From the NCBI GenBank assembly GCA_024336345.1, contig JANFOG010000008.1, positions 620,001-684,000 on the forward strand: 64,000 nt of DNA, in the 5' to 3' direction. A program made the translations under genes and the position numbers. The notes beneath the pieces are model-generated. The model worked only from the letters and a program-made list of their open reading frames with translations, was not told where the DNA came from and searched no databases. The number at the start of each line of letters is the position of its first letter. Within the stretch, counting starts at the first letter, position 1. This DNA is from Mariannaea sp. PMI_226 (Eukaryota > Ascomycota > Sordariomycetes > Hypocreales > Nectriaceae). Of this stretch, positions 33,872 through 43,406 are shown piece by piece.

Positions 33872-34370
33872 TCAGGTGCGGAACCGGGGGCGTGACTCCG
33901 TCCTCGACCTCTCCTCATCGAGTTCTATGGAGATATTATAGGTCATTGTCCGGGTGATCGGGTTCCCCAAGAGCTTCTCAATGTCACAGTCATCGAGTTC
34001 TGCAGGGAAGACGCGGAAGCTTTTGACCCCAGTGCCCTGCTCTTCGATTATACTCGAGCCACTGAGCTTAAGCTCGCGAATGAGGGAAGTATATTGATCA
34101 CCAAATGCCGTCTTCGATATCATCACAGTAACTTCTGTTGGTGTCGCTGTAAGTCACCATGTGTAGGTAGCTGTAGTTGTGGTCGTCGTGTGCGGGACTG
34201 TGATCAATGTCTTTGTGTGTGTCGACATAGAAGCCACGGTTGGCAAAATTACCAACTGATGGCACTGAAGTCGGTTTCAGTATATTTGTCGAAGTGGATG
34301 TGATCAGAGTGATGGAGGAGATCGGTTTCGTGGTGGAAGTACTGGGAGATATCGGTGCACCAACGTTTCA
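33872..34370 (-). pseudogene. Candidate relic of a Ser/Thr-rich protein
   Basis: On the minus strand a Thr/Ser-rich stretch (SPSTSTTKPISSITLITSTS, then in a shifted frame HTTTTTATYT) leads, again in a shifted frame, into an 84-codon open piece with VMISKTAFGDQYTSLIREL and a Glu/Arg-rich end. The changes of frame between pieces suggest decay, or introns I cannot place. Ser/Thr-rich linkers like this are common in fungal wall or secreted proteins. No family recognised. Confidence 0.3.
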
Positions 34371-34504
34371 CAGTGAAAGGTGGGATAAGTGCAAGCAGAG
34401 ATAATTAATCGAGATACTATATTATGGGGATAATGGTGACATATCTATATAGTATATGTATATAGTAGGCCTGATGTTTCTAGCCACCTTCAGGGCCGGA
34501 TTCC

Positions 34505-35010
34505 CTATTTCAACGGAGAGCCCTTGGGCACTTTCTCAATGTCAAGAGAAGTGGCACCGAGAACATTGCCCACAGAGCAGGCCGCGGTTACCCAATAGTA
34601 GCCGCAAGCAGAAGGACAGTTCTTGATTTTTTCAGCACTACCAAAGAAGAAGAGTTGAGCATCGTATCTAACGGGTCAGAAGGCGTAATAAGTAGAACTT
34701 ACTATGCCCGAACTTCTGCTGCGCTGAGTACTGGCGGAACGTTGCCAGCTCCCGCACACTCGTAACTAAGAAGCGAGACAATTCCATTAGATGTAACGGC
34801 AGAGACGATGGCGTCACCGCCGCCACCGTAGGAAACGCCGTCTTGGTACTGGTTGATGGCGAGCTGGAGGACATTTGCGTTTGCCTGCACGCAGGCGGGC
34901 ATATTACTTCCAATGGGGGTGCATTGTGTGGTGCCCGGAGTATTTGCCGTTAAGGCGACAGAGACGAAAGCAGACAGGATAGCTGCCTTCAAAAAGGTAG
35001 AATAAGCCAT
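34505..35010 (-). CDS. Small secreted cysteine-containing protein
   Basis: Two exons, 34703-35010 and 34505-34637, give 146 residues. The start is followed by a clear signal peptide (MAYSTFLKAAILSAFVSVALTA). The mature part is small, Gly/Ala/Ser-rich, with six cysteines spread along it (in TQC, PAC, YEC, KNC, SAC and AAC contexts), which could form three disulphides. The intron has a GTAAGT donor; I used the acceptor at 34638-34639 because the nearer TTAG acceptor would put a stop at the junction. No domain recognised; such proteins are often effectors or surface proteins, but nothing here proves that. A TATA element lies about 90 bp upstream. A decayed relative of the first exon lies just beyond the promoter, at 35290-35400. 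Confidence 0.75.
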
Positions 35011-35098
35011 TTCGAAAACTTGCCCCCTTAAGTGAGGTTTAGAGAAACAAGTTTGTTGTTGTTGGCTTTACTATCTCCTCAAAAGTCCAAAGCCTGGC

Positions 35099-36500: not shown

Positions 36501-39500
36501 ATGAGCCATGATCAAGAGATTCGGAGTACCGAACCAGAAATACGGGACTTTGATGCGATATCGAGCTCTGATGAGACTCTGGTAACGCGCCAAACTAGCG
36601 GCTGGACCACGGACCAACTTATATCAAGCACTGAGACCCGCGGCGAGGCAAATGAAGATTACACGATTGGCTGGATATGTGCTTTGCTAGAAGAGCTCGA
36701 GGCGGCTTGCCAGATGCTGGATGACGAATTTGATGGCCCAGAGACGAACGATGTCAACGATGACAACACATACGTGTTTGGCCGGATCGGTAGGCACAAC
36801 GTTGTAATAGGATGTCTGCCGGCCGGCCGCTATGGTATCACTTCCGCCACGAGTGTTGCCAAGGATATGGTCCGATCATTCCCTAACATTCGATTCGCCT
36901 TGATGGTGGGCATCGGCGGAGGCGCTCCATCGCGGAAGAACGACATCAGGCTAGGAGATGTGGTTGTCAGCGTGCCACAGGGAAAGTATGGCGGCGTGGT
37001 GCAGTACGACTTTGGGAAGAGGCTGACGGGTGGCCTATTTCAGCTAACTAGCCAGCTAGATGGCCCCCCTACAGTGTTACTTGGGGCGCTGCAAGATATG
37101 CGGCGGCGTCACGACGACCGAAGGAAGCCAGACAAGATTGCCGAACATATCACGCGGATGGATGACATGTTGGAATTCCGAAAACCAGAGCAGGATCGAC
37201 TGTATTGCGCTGACTACGTACATCAGGGCGGGCCAGACTGCGATAATTGTGGCACGGAGAGGGTGGTGAACCGACCCCAGCGGGCGACTGGTCGTGCCGT
37301 AACAATTCACTATGGCATGATTGCTTCTGCAAACTCGGTTATGAAGGACGCTGTAGAGAGAGATCAATATTCAAATGATCCCGAACTGAATATCTTGTGT
37401 TTCGAGATGGAAGCAGCCGGACTGATGAACTGCTTCCCTTGTTTGGTCATTCGAGGCATATGCGACTACTCGGATTCTCACAAGAATGATGAGTGGCACA
37501 ATTATGCCGCGCTCACAGCGGCAGCATACGCAAGGGAACTTTTACATATCGTGAAAGAGCAAAAAGTCACAAGGTTACCATCATGGGTTGGAAAGTCTCA
37601 ACAGCGTAGGTAGATCTCCTTTAGTAATTCCTCCTATCGTTGTCACTGGATGCACCAGGCGGAAATCACAAACGTGATCGACTATACCGATTTTTATAAG
37701 ACTACAACAGCTACCAATGAAGTTCCAGATTACTAATAACCATGCAGTTCTCTCGAATATGCAGAAAGACGTCGTGGGTGTGTCGCGAGGCATCGGCGAG
37801 CTCCTTCACAAGAAAGAGGAGACGGAGAGTCAAGAGATCCTCAATTGGCTCACGCTCATCGATTATACTTCCCAACAAAACGATCACTTCAGCAGACGTC
37901 AGACAGGCACTGGCCAATGGCTTCTGGACTCTCTGGAGTTTCAGACATGGCTTCGTGGTGTCGAAGAGACTCTATTTTGCCCAGGCATTCCTGGTGCTGG
38001 AAAGACCATACTCACGTCAGTGGTTGTCAACGAGCTGAGGTCACGTTTCGAGGATGATGAGAGTATCGGACTGGCTCAAGTGTACTGTAACTTCGGGCAG
38101 CAGGATGAGCAGAAGGCTGATGATCTGTTGGCGAGTTTGTTACGGCAATTATCTCAGAGGCGACCTGCTCTTCCGGATGCTGTGAAAACCCTCTACAACG
38201 AACACAAACGCAAACTGACGCGACCTTCGATTGACGAACTTTCTAAAACACTACGGTCGGTTGCGTCTCTATACTCAAGAGTCTTCATTATTATAGATGC
38301 ACTGGACGAGTGCCAGACCACGGACAACTGCCTTAGCAACTTCCTGTCCGAAATATTCGCCTTTCGGTCTAGAAGCGGTGCGAACATCTTTGCGACCTCC
38401 AGATTTATGCCCAGTATTATGGCAAAGTTCAATATGTGTCCATGGTTAGAAATTTATGCTACCAAAGAAGATGTGCACAGATATATTGATGGGCACTTGT
38501 CTCAACTGCTCCCGTTCATCATGAAGGATTCACAACTCCAAGAAGAAATTAAAACTGTCATATCTGTGGCTTCGGGTGGGATGTGTGTAACCGATGTATT
38601 TCCCAGAAACCTCAAAGATTGTGCTGATATAATTGATAGGTTTTTACTGGCGAAGCTATATCTCAGCTCGCTCGAGGACCAGGTCACTACAAGGGCTATC
38701 AAGCGGGCGCTGCAGCGGCTTCAGAAACACGATTCAGACTCTGGAGAGGACGATAATCTTCAAGTGCTAAATTCTGCGTATGACAAAGTCATGGAGAGGA
38801 TCAATGGACAAATGACGGGGTTGCGTGTTTTAGCCCTGGAGATTCTGTCGTGGATCACCTGTGCAAGGAGGCTATTGACAACCTCGGAACTCCAGCATGC
38901 CCTGGCCGTGGAAGTTGGCTACACTAAGCTGGGGGACGGCAACTTCCCAGCTATTGAGGCTATGATTTCGGTGTGTGCGGGCTTAGTCACAGTTGACGAG
39001 AAAAGCGAGGTTATTCAGCTGTGTCACCACACGGCCCGGGAGTACTTCATACAAAAGAAGTCGTTTCTAAAGGGACACCACAAGATCGCCGACATTTGCA
39101 CTACTTACCTCACATTTAGCATCTTCGGGTCTGGGTTTTGTCGAACAGATGAAGAGTTTGAGGCGAGGCTTCGGTCGAATCCGTTTTACGAGTACGCAGC
39201 ACGCAACTGGGGACACCACGCCCGCGACATGCAACCCTTGTCTGTTTCTATTCTTCGCTTTCTAAAAAGCGAAGCACAGATAGAATCATCGAGCCAAGTT
39301 GTAATTGCCGTCGAGCAATCTTGGAGAGGCTCAGACTATAGCCAACTCGTCCCGAGACATATGACAGGGTTGCATTTGGCAGCATATTTCGGAATTGGAG
39401 AAGCAGTAAGCATATTGCTTCAATCAACAGCTTCAGGTACCCCACGAGACTCTTATGGCCGAACGCCGCACTGGTGGGCTGCCAGAAATGGCCATGTAGA

Positions 39501-40969
39501 AGTTGTAAAGATCTTGCTCCACGCAGATAGTGCCAGTGCGGATGTAAAGGATGATGTTGATGGTCAAACACCGCTTTCGAAAGCCGCGGAAAATGGCCAC
39601 GAGGCCATCGTAAGTCTATTATGCGATACAGGTGATATCAATATAAACCAGGGATCGTCCAGTGACCGAACGCCGCTATCCTATGCTGCGGCAGGAGGCT
39701 ACGAAGGCATTGTAACCCTTCTGCTTCCTTTCATCACTATAGCTATTAATTTCGAGGACGAGACTGGATGGACGGCCTTGACATATGCTGCAGCCAGAGG
39801 TCATGCTGGCGTAGTGCAACTATTTTTGGCTTTGGGGAGCATATATCCCGACCCGAAGGATGAAGGCGGTCGAACTCCACTATCGTATGCGGCAGAAGAA
39901 GGCCACGCTGAAGTCGTGGGGCTTCTACTACGCAACAACGGTGTTGATCCCGACTCCAGGGCCACAGGCTATTACAGAGAAGGTCGAACACCTCTTTCGT
40001 ACGCTGCCGAGAATGGTCATGAAGACGTTGTGGCATTACTACTGGAAACCCAGAAGGTTGATGTGAACTCATACAACTACTACAGCTGGACACCCATATC
40101 GTACGCGGCTGAAAATGGCCACAAAGGAGTCCTGAGTCTGCTACGAGGCATGGAGGTAGTTGCTACGAGCCCGAGAAATAATGACACATACAGGCCACCA
40201 TCGCCTCCAAAACCCAAGCCGCTGACTGCGCTACGACAGCAGAGAGGGGAATCGGACCTTTTCAGGCACAGTCTCGAGATTCCAAGTTATTTCAGCCAGA
40301 AGGGAGGCGATATGGCTGACTTTTCAGCTCAGGTAAGCCAACGGTTTTCCTGAGACACAATGATGAGAGACGACTAAAATGTAGAGTAGATAGTATGCTT
40401 CCTCTGGTTCGAATCGATCAAGGTCCTTGAGGCTTCTGAAAAGATACGGACGCTTCCGGCAAACTCGCCTATTCCAAAACTTACTTCCCTGGCCGTGCCA
40501 TCAGGCCGATTTACAAATTGGATTCGGTTGCTACTTTCGAACACCCAAATCTCTCAAAATGTTATCGTGGTGGCATTGCTGTTCCTGCACCGCCTCGATG
40601 GGATGAACCCCACCATCAAGGGACGGGTGGGAAGCGAATTCCGCATCTTCCTCGTGGCGATGATGCTCGGGAATAAAGGCGAGTAGCGTACCTTGACTTC
40701 AATGGATGAAGGAGTAAAACCAGGAACAACTCGCTGACACGACAGTAATCCCAGTTCTCGATGACAATACTTATACCAATAAGACTTGGGCGATGGTTTC
40801 AGGCTTTCTAGTTGAGGAGATCCATAAGATGGAGATCGAGTTCGTAGATTCAGTGCGCTACAGCCTATTCGTTTCCAGAGAGCAGTGGGAGGAATGGCTT
40901 AACAAGCTGGGGAAATACTGGGAATATTGTGAGCGAGCGCAACGATCTTCGTCGACTGATGTTGTCTGA
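36501..40969 (+). CDS. NLR-like protein: PNP-UDP domain, NACHT NTPase, ankyrin repeats, C-terminal cyclin box
   Basis: Predicted cytosolic STAND-type receptor. Exons 36501-37609, 37701-40332, 40390-40678 and 40755-40969 keep one frame for 1414 residues. Residues ~50-365: purine nucleoside phosphorylase-like domain (VGIGGGAPS, LGDVVVS, FEMEAAGLMN, RGICDYSDSHK). From ~465: NACHT with Walker A GIPGAGKT (465-472) and Walker B FIIIDALDEC (~564). About 925-1195: eight ankyrin repeats (GRTPLSYAAENGHEDVVALL and relatives). A Pro-rich linker leads, across a 57-bp intron, into a Pho80-type cyclin box (VALLFLHRLDGMNP, GSEFRIFLVAMMLGNK, DDNTYTNKTWAMVSG, MEIEFVDSVRYSLFVSREQW) to residue 1414. The third intron has an AAG/GCGAGT (GC-AG) donor. 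PNP-NACHT-ankyrin is a known fungal layout linked to non-self recognition; the cyclin part is the odd one. If the 57-bp intron is retained, the protein stops 7 codons on, without cyclin. Separate genes remain possible. Confidence 0.8.
40390..40969 (+). other. Cyclin box region within the NLR-like gene model
   Basis: Exons 40390-40678 and 40755-40969 encode most of a PCL/Pho80-type cyclin domain, which in free cyclins binds and activates a cyclin-dependent kinase. Residue pattern from IVCFLWFES through TNWIRLLLSNTQISQNV to LNKLGKYWEY is the full box, with the key VRGRV/GSEFR and NTYTNKTW elements intact (GMNPTIKGRVGSEF here). If independent, its start could be the ATG at 40312 (MADFSAQ before the intron) or lie further up inside the ankyrin gene's last coding stretch; I saw no promoter-like gap between the two. 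Confidence 0.8.
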
Positions 40970-41343: not shown

Positions 41344-42126
41344 TTACAATACAATTTGCTTCTTAGGACCGCATTTGCCTGGGAGAGTAGTTGTGGTGGC
41401 CTCCGCACTCGTCGTTGTGGTAGTGGCGGCAGCGGTGGTGGTCGTGGCCTCTGAAGTCGTAGAAGTCGCTGTGGTGCAAGTCTCGGTTACATGCATAGCA
41501 ATTCCATTGTCGATGAAGACCTTGAAGTCGTTGAAGAAGTTGGGATCGTTAGAGGCGGCTTGGCAGCTGAACACAACCGCAAGACTCCCTGAAGTAGCCG
41601 GGGCAACAAATGAACCCGACAGGGTCTGCCAAGATGACACATCGCCGGCGCTGTAAACATATTGGGTGCCGCCCACCCAAGTTGGGTAGGGGTCATCAAA
41701 CTCCATCCAGATATCGCAGGTCTGTGGGTGGCTCGGTTGTGGACTGGTCAGGGGGTAGAACGGTTTATAGTCGAAGCTGACCTTGTAGGTGGCGTCCTTT
41801 TCTAAGTCCACGGACTGGAAAACAACGATCGACTCACTACCGCCTGTGTACCTTGAGATGGACGTTAGGACCTGTCATTTATGCTGAATGGATGAGAGAT
41901 GATCGACTTACAGAGACTGCTGGCCATCTGTATGTTCATCTGTGCTAATTCCTGAGAAGCCAGTCCAAATGGTCCACGCATCATTGGGGTCACCATTCTC
42001 AAATGATGGGTTGCTGAGCAAATTGCTGCCGTCCTCATTTTCAACACAGGTGACTTGGCCTGCGACAGAGGACGACAGGAATCCTGCAATAAGCAGGATT
42101 CCGCTACTCAAGTGTTGATGCATCAT
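41344..42126 (-). CDS. Secreted Ser/Thr-rich protein with a carbohydrate-binding-like beta domain
   Basis: Two exons, 41912-42126 and 41344-41851, give 240 residues; the intron has GTAAGT and a CCTAAC branch. A signal peptide is visible (HLSSGILLIAGFLSSSVAGQ). The body starts with NLLSNPSFENGDPNDAWTIW, a pattern typical of galactose-binding-like/CBM4-9-like jelly-roll modules, and continues with VFQSVDLEKDATYKVSFDY and SWQTLSGSFVAP, both usual for such folds. The last 50 residues are Thr/Ala-rich (low complexity, likely O-glycosylated) and end KCGPKKQIVL without a hydrophobic GPI signal. Probably secreted or wall-associated and sugar-binding; ligand unknown. A further exon at the 3' end cannot be excluded. 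Confidence 0.75.
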
Positions 42127-43406
42127 TGTCGTGAACTTTGATAGTTGACCAATGCGTCACGAGATACAGAATCAAACATCCAGCTAGAAAAGTAGGGGGC
42201 ATGAGACTTTTAAGTCACGGCAAGGAGGATATTGTTGGACATTTTGCTCCTTTCCTTCGCGTTCCTGGGCTAATCGGGGATTGTCTGATGGTTAGATGGA
42301 GCTATTTAGTGATAGTTTGGATTTTAGAACGAATACCCAACCGAGAGGAGATTAGTATTGTTATCGATCTACCCCGAAAGGAGAGAATCGGCCAGCCAGC
42401 AAGAAAAAATCGATCCACAAGACAAGGATCACAGATCTCACTACCTAACAAAGCTCTCAGCCGCACCAAAACCTTGGCTGTTAGCGCCAGAGAGAATTTT
42501 ACAAGATTCGAGACCCCGTGAAATGAAATCAGCAACACTAATAATAACAGCTTCTAGAACGTAATTAATGAAGGCTACGTGGTAGTGCGGTAGGCAACTA
42601 AGCTATCTGAGAGGGAGGTGGCGATTTTCCAGATACGGCGTTTGTTAGCGAACATGAAGCCACCCATTTGACTGAATCACATCATGGACTGACTGACTGC
42701 AAGCAATCAGTAGCAACACGGGAAAGCTTGCACGCGAAAGTGTGGATACAGAAAACCCCCGGATCTACGGCATAAGGCTGTCCTCCGTATTGCACCATTC
42801 ATCCGATCCATTACACTAGACCCAAGGCAATCCAATGGATCTTTGGTGTCAAGCATCCTTACGGAGAAGACACGATGGGATGGATGCCAGGTCGAGCCGG
42901 TGGCTTGGTACCTGAGCTTGAGCCTGGGCCTGGGGGCCTGGTTGGGCTATCGAATGCCCCACGTTAGAGCTTTTCAGGAGCCGGCCTAGCAAGTCCAGTG
43001 TGGGCACTAAAAGGGTTCATTGAGGAGACGATGCGGCTTTTCCTACATGGGTAATATTAGTTGACGAAATTAACTTCTTGTCTTCTACTAGGTAAGTTTG
43101 TATTCAAAAGCAGACATAAATAATATCTATTCCAGCATAGCGGTTAAAGTTTTGAATAGCATTGTTTAGTATACACATTGACTCGCGAATGACAATGAAA
43201 GAGGGTACAATTTAGGAGTGAGGGATCAAAGACGACAAAAAGCAGTTTTGGGGAAGGTGTACCATGAATGAATATCATTGGGCAGGCCCGTCAGATCAAT
43301 ACATAAGTATTCGCATTTCGATACTCTGGGATATAAATACCAACACTGCACGATATATCCAACGGCATCTCTAGTCTTGGAGCCCTCCCACGCAGCATGT
43401 TCACCT
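42127..43406. other. Intergenic region, no gene seen
   Basis: 1.3 kb. An open frame 42138-42521 on the plus strand is basic and has no recognisable product. It should hold the promoter of the secreted protein gene and the 3' flank of the next gene. Confidence 0.45.

Follow-up and report, generated by a model that had tools for sequence, protein, structure and literature searches.

A gene encoding a fungal NOD-like receptor (NLR) very probably continues, as one gene, into a C-terminal cyclin domain in a 64,000-nucleotide (nt) stretch of DNA from Mariannaea sp. PMI_226 (the window); the genome searched comprises 42 Mb in 25 contigs. From the ATG at 36501, a five-exon model runs for 4137 nt including the stop codon and encodes 1378 residues with no internal stop (Table 1). 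We give roughly even chances to the further proposal that the integrated cyclin serves a Pho85-type kinase system as bait or as docking site, because high confidence in the fusion itself is here combined with a divided view on its role.

Gene structure and the probable cyclin fusion

A previous sequence-only reading of this DNA had proposed a PNP-NACHT-ankyrin gene that starts at 36501 and whose reading frame extends into a Pho80/PCL-type cyclin, and domain scans and the gene model bear out that frame. The GTAAGC donor at 40333, the acceptor before 40390 and the stop codon ending at 40969 were likewise recovered, while its count of four exons and 1414 codons was not reproduced. The domain search of the spliced protein that it had recommended placed NPHP3_N, GPIID_WHD, ankyrin and PF08613 over their cut-offs. 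The cyclin domain is indeed entered from 40390, but not in a single exon as had been supposed: because the frame from 40390 hits a TAG at 40684–40686, an additional intron is required within the cyclin, and its limits (40679–40754) were placed by comparison with a paralogue on contig C4. The cyclin module occupies residues 1182–1378. It matches PF08613 with an expect value (E) of 5.7e-10 and scores of 40.2 bits (whole protein) and 44.0 bits against a cut-off of 21, and a search against NCBIfam returned nothing beyond a chance match (E 0.084).

Within this genome, the nearest cyclin detected is the C4 gene, a stand-alone cyclin of 690 residues in a three-exon model, whose protein also matches PF08613. 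Over the shared segment, 101 of 195 residues are identical, and both introns of that segment have identical position and phase in the two genes; the C4 counterpart of intron 4 is a GT-AG intron with the donor T/GTAAGT. The sequence-only reading had also taken residues upstream of intron 3 (LFRHSLEIPSYFSQ...MADFSAQ) for cyclin N-terminal sequence, and this interpretation held. The last 30 residues of exon 3 are identical at 15 positions to the C4 exon that precedes the first shared intron. A genome search with only the 49 residues that precede intron 3 gave four matches. The window itself ranked first and the C4 cyclin exon second (E 0.0049), with the latter match stopping at the corresponding exon end, and the remaining two had E 0.037 and 0.28. 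The ankyrin exon thus already holds cyclin sequence, which is strong support for one fused gene. That the cyclin is reached merely by chance splicing was rejected, the exon before intron 3 being itself cyclin-like. The 165 residues that precede the shared segment in C4 and the 330 that follow it have no counterpart in the window gene; by this comparison, the joined part consists of the conserved core of the cyclin, which retains both of its original introns, and the domain is related to a stand-alone host gene. The proposed capture of a cyclin gene at the 3' end is therefore supported by the C4 relative and its introns of the same position and phase. Another site, C24:1434201, was considered as a further cyclin piece and rejected; its match (E 0.027) contains a stop, and TBLASTN with the C4 protein (E 0.01) was empty there.

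Table 1. Features of the NLR-cyclin gene model and its 3' neighbor; splice donors are scored against MAG/GTRAGT.
Feature	Position	Strand	Content	Basis or match
Exon 1	36501..37605	+	start codon, N-terminal PNP_UDP_1 (nucleoside phosphorylase-like) effector domain	
Intron 1	37606..37747	+	GTAGGT...CAG, 142 bp	frame, splice sites; donor 6/9
Exon 2	37748..38582	+	NACHT-type nucleoside triphosphatase, Walker A GIPGAGKT and Walker B IIIDALDECQ	
Intron 2	38583..38639	+	GTGTGT...TAG, 57 bp	donor 6/9; splicing restores GGMFLLAKLYL (GGM/FLLAKLY)
Exon 3	38640..40332	+	winged helix, ankyrin repeats, Pro-rich linker, cyclin N-terminal segment	
Eight ankyrin repeats	about 39361-40185	+	inside exon 3	
Pro-rich linker	about 40186-40242	+	~19 residues between ankyrin repeats and cyclin segment	
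Cyclin-derived segment	40243..40332	+	RGESDLFRHSLEIPSYFSQKGGDMADFSAQ, within ankyrin exon	matches C4 exon
Intron 3	40333..40389	+	GTAAGC...TAG, 57 bp, phase 0	donor 8/9
Exon 4	40390..40678	+	cyclin box, first part; PF08613	47% to C4, E 9e-24
Intron 4	40679..40754	+	GC-AG, AAG/GCGAGT...CCCAG, 76 bp, phase 1	donor 8/9
Exon 5	40755..40969	+	remaining cyclin box and stop codon	59% to C4, E 1e-22
Secreted-type Ser/Thr-rich gene	41344..42156	-	neighbor outside the fusion	with cyclin 3' end, segment partly copied on C20

Receptor domains

The portion upstream of the cyclin is, on its domain content, a fungal STAND (signal transduction ATPases with numerous domains)/NLR protein of the PNP-NACHT-ANK type, in which PNP, a NACHT-type nucleoside triphosphatase (NTPase), winged helix and ankyrin repeats were all found. 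When exon 1 was scanned alone, PF01048 was matched over residues 55–352 (E 1.1e-10, 41.7 bits; cut-off 25.1); PNP_UDP_1 was over its cut-off only in that scan and was not listed for the whole protein. The top NCBIfam model for exon 1 was an MTA/SAH nucleosidase, far under its cut-off (46.7 bits versus 169), and exon 1 had no match in the PDB at E 0.01. In the whole-protein Pfam scan, NPHP3_N exceeded its cut-off over residues 422–587 (E 6.4e-38, 131 bits), while the NACHT model itself (PF05729) remained under its cut-off of 26.7 at 21.3 bits. Walker A lies at residue 448, Walker B at 549, and the PNP motifs EMEAAG and GICDYSD at 302 and 319, respectively; we take these four motifs to carry their usual catalytic meaning. 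GPIID_WHD, for the winged helix, scored 53.3 bits (E 3.9e-14, over its cut-off), and Ank_2 reached 176.2 bits against a cut-off of 27.3. Eight repeats were counted by reading the translation, the same number as in the sequence-only reading. To our knowledge, the targets detected by fungal NLRs are largely unknown.

Intron 2, which the sequence-only reading had not included, is supported by six paralogue loci in which the same two pieces are split by a short unrelated stretch; in four of the six loci that stretch brings a stop or shifts the frame, and in two it is open. In the window gene, intron 2 is itself free of in-frame stops and its length is divisible by three, so that retention would insert 19 residues after the NACHT core with the frame intact.

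Putative kinase- and regulator-facing residues

In an alignment to yeast Pho80 (2pk9_B), the window cyclin shares R121, K132, D136, E154 and E159, although only 24 of 95 residues are identical overall (E 0.017); Cyclin-Y (9r2i_D) outscores Pho80 (E 0.0011). We take Pho80 K132, D136 and E159 to have roles in CDK (cyclin-dependent kinase) contact. Pho80 R121 and E154 form a groove salt bridge that is needed for Pho81 binding (PMC10511240). Conservation of these residues would suit a cyclin that can contact a Pho85-type kinase or regulators of that kinase.

Evidence for constraint on the cyclin and a partial copy on C20

Differences between the window cyclin and C4 number 72, 49 and 121 of 195 at first, second and third codon positions, respectively, with a nonsynonymous divergence (dN) of 0.40 and an undefined synonymous divergence (dS); constraint seen against C4 belongs in part to the C4 branch. 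Contig C20 holds a copy of the cyclin 3' stretch, the intergenic region and the neighboring gene. Between window and C20, the cyclin tail is identical at 80 of 99 positions with nine gap columns, as compared to 197 of 315 with 88 gap columns for the intergenic stretch (Fisher p 6e-4). In a neutral simulation, the chance that 197 codons remain stop-free was 0.011 at 0.268 substitutions per site, 0.068 at 0.134 and 0.216 at 0.067. Together, the C20 comparison and the simulation suggest, with moderate strength, constraint on the cyclin, without dating it relative to the fusion.

The possibility that C20 holds a decayed whole cyclin or NLR-cyclin gene was rejected; roughly the final 100 bp of the cyclin are all that can be recognized there, and the 9 kb upstream of the copy contain no convincing NLR piece (best E 1.9). 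The Ser/Thr-rich gene has its copy at C20:2646759-2647630 and is duplicated along with the cyclin 3' end at ~70% DNA identity, as a partial segmental duplication. The protein of the Ser/Thr-rich gene scored 22.6 bits with the carbohydrate-binding model CBM_4_9, under the cut-off of 25.9.

Occurrence among other NLR loci of the genome

The NACHT region has 47 matches in the genome, and the six best-scoring other loci (L060–L065, 8–9 kb each) were examined. No cyclin was found in these six nearest NLR paralogue loci (best match E 0.35), and none of the 12 cyclin matches and eight PF08613 family matches of the genome lies beside them. At L060, an alignment extending to residue 1236 was considered as a cyclin tail and rejected, ankyrin being aligned beyond its end. 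At L064, the winged helix is not followed by any ankyrin match. L062 (C19:4083001-4092000) and L063 (C16:18001-27000) are very similar NACHT-ankyrin paralogues with repeats alike within the array, and one of the two is located on a 44-kb contig. Upstream of the receptor gene, a stretch of ~150 bp (34367-34517) has eight more copies or part-copies at 71–86% identity on six contigs and is possibly a dispersed repeat; it lies near a small open reading frame (34702-35067, minus strand) with a signal-like start.

Discussion

The last exon of a PNP-NACHT-winged helix-ankyrin receptor appears to have been joined to a truncated PCL/Pho80-type cyclin gene. The sequence-only reading had suggested an integrated decoy or effector that engages a CDK through the cyclin, which is plausible; gene capture and cyclin sequence ahead of the intron are the parts of that interpretation that found support. 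As an integrated C-terminal domain, the cyclin would lie on the sensing side of the receptor and would display the surface through which cyclins of this kind contact a Pho85/CDK5-type kinase or their regulators. The receptor would be altered by a foreign protein or when the kinase complex changes, and NACHT oligomerization would then trigger the PNP domain. Members of the PNP_UDP family hydrolyze ATP in immune cell death (PMC12881547). A sensing or bait role for the cyclin, with PNP as the effector, is favored because of the C-terminal position beyond the repeats and because of published precedents. A domain captured from a host gene family that can be identified points to a candidate target, in this case a cyclin and its kinase; provided that the fusion is real, the host process that is guarded or engaged becomes directly testable.

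Several observations weigh against a single fused gene with the cyclin as bait. The PF08613 fit begins only at profile position 37–38, leaving the first 36 positions unmatched, and a genome-wide six-frame PF08613 search (eight matches, exons taken apart) missed both the window cyclin and C4. Intron 4 has a GC donor, and if it were unspliced the cyclin would end early at 40684. GC donors are functional where the remainder of the splice site is strong. In-frame internal ATGs at 40150 and 40312 are possible starts of a separate cyclin. Among the loci examined, the fusion occurs only once. In the C20 comparison, the tail was taken from the point at which similarity sets in, a choice that favors high identity. 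Finally, the preference for bait over output is argued by position and analogy alone.

The main rival, which we consider possible but well behind the bait role, accepts the same fusion and makes the cyclin an output or adaptor module. The cyclin would recruit a Pho85-type kinase, and oligomerization would cluster the kinase and so activate or inactivate it, either alongside the PNP effector or in its place. The five conserved Pho80 positions go beyond what a pure bait might need, and in Schizosaccharomyces pombe the CDK5 orthologue Pef1 partners the cyclins Clg1, Pas1 and Psl1 (PMC7828282). In contrast, fungal NLRs are described as carrying effectors at the N terminus and sensing regions at the C terminus (PMC12258605), and an N-terminal PNP effector is already present. 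A further and rather speculative proposal is that the NLR, once activated, arranges cyclin modules in a ring and thereby captures a Pho85/CDK5-type kinase; control of the kinase (nutrient, cell-cycle, autophagy) and activation of immunity would then be one molecular event. If true, this ring, together with the plant NLR-cyclin fusions described below, would mark cyclin-CDK complexes as an attack target in two kingdoms.

Two overlapping genes, namely an NLR that ends at 40353 inside intron 3 and a short cyclin of 228 or 174 residues that starts at 40150 or 40312, respectively, are quite unlikely. The unspliced NLR frame stops at 40354, and both internal ATGs carry a G at positions -3 and +4, as this arrangement would allow. 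However, the cyclin promoter and 5' untranslated region would fall within ankyrin codons, the 40312 start would remove the conserved SLEIP segment, and the NLR would finish with half a cyclin exon, in addition to which the donor at 40333 agrees with the consensus at eight of nine positions.

Least probable is a captured cyclin fragment that is read through by the NLR as a functionless passenger heading to decay: the GC donor, the single occurrence, the truncation of the related C20 fragment and a frame whose openness is unsurprising under the slowest neutral clock simulated are consistent with it, but the low stop-free chances at the two faster clocks, a coding tail closer to C20 than the intergenic stretch and second codon positions far less altered than third argue for constraint, even if the selection behind those results may have preceded the fusion or acted on the C4 branch.

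Comparison with known systems

The receptor part of the favored NLR-cyclin fusion is reminiscent of Pa_3_8560 of Podospora anserina, with N-terminal PNP, NACHT with Walker motifs and C-terminal ankyrin repeats (PMC4986451); unlike NLRs of this PNP_UDP-NACHT-ANK type, the window gene has a cyclin after the ankyrin repeats. The cyclin part belongs with Pho80 (2pk9), Cyclin-Y (9r2i) and C4 in the cyclin family, the five aligned Pho80 residues included, but is without the long terminal tails of C4.

The sequence-only reading had placed a C-terminal cyclin outside the known layouts, which stands in part. The word cyclin is absent from the main texts of PMC12258605, PMC9815663, PMC4986451 and PMC12881547 (supplements, with a list of 185 non-canonical domains, aside), and our literature searches found nothing on a cyclin domain with NACHT in fungi, or on cyclin combined with ankyrin-repeat NLRs and heterokaryon incompatibility in Aspergillus. 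Apparent occurrences in PMC6709784 and PMC7145615 proved to be the word cycling. In contrast, extra C-terminal domains and plant NLR-cyclin fusions are in print. Sordariales NLRs carry C-terminal PKinase (CHK2/PRD-4-like), zinc-finger or SPRY domains, and the PKinase domains of nine such NLRs, a monophyletic set, have been proposed as integrated decoys (PMC12258605). As in the PKinase cases, the window gene has a complete tripartite NLR with an extra C-terminal domain related to a stand-alone gene; unlike the Sordariales cases, a cyclin takes the place of a kinase or binding domain, and the fusion comes from one genome only. Extra C-terminal domains on NLRs are thus known, and a fungal NLR that carries a cyclin in this place appears to be new within the literature searched. 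Cyclin_N and Cyclin_C are among the NLR-fused domains of Eucalyptus grandis and Medicago truncatula (PMC4759884). There too, an NLR is joined to a cyclin, but those fusions are of the nucleotide-binding leucine-rich repeat type with Cyclin_N/Cyclin_C families, and a common origin is not implied. They allow the idea of convergence on shared host machinery to be tested.

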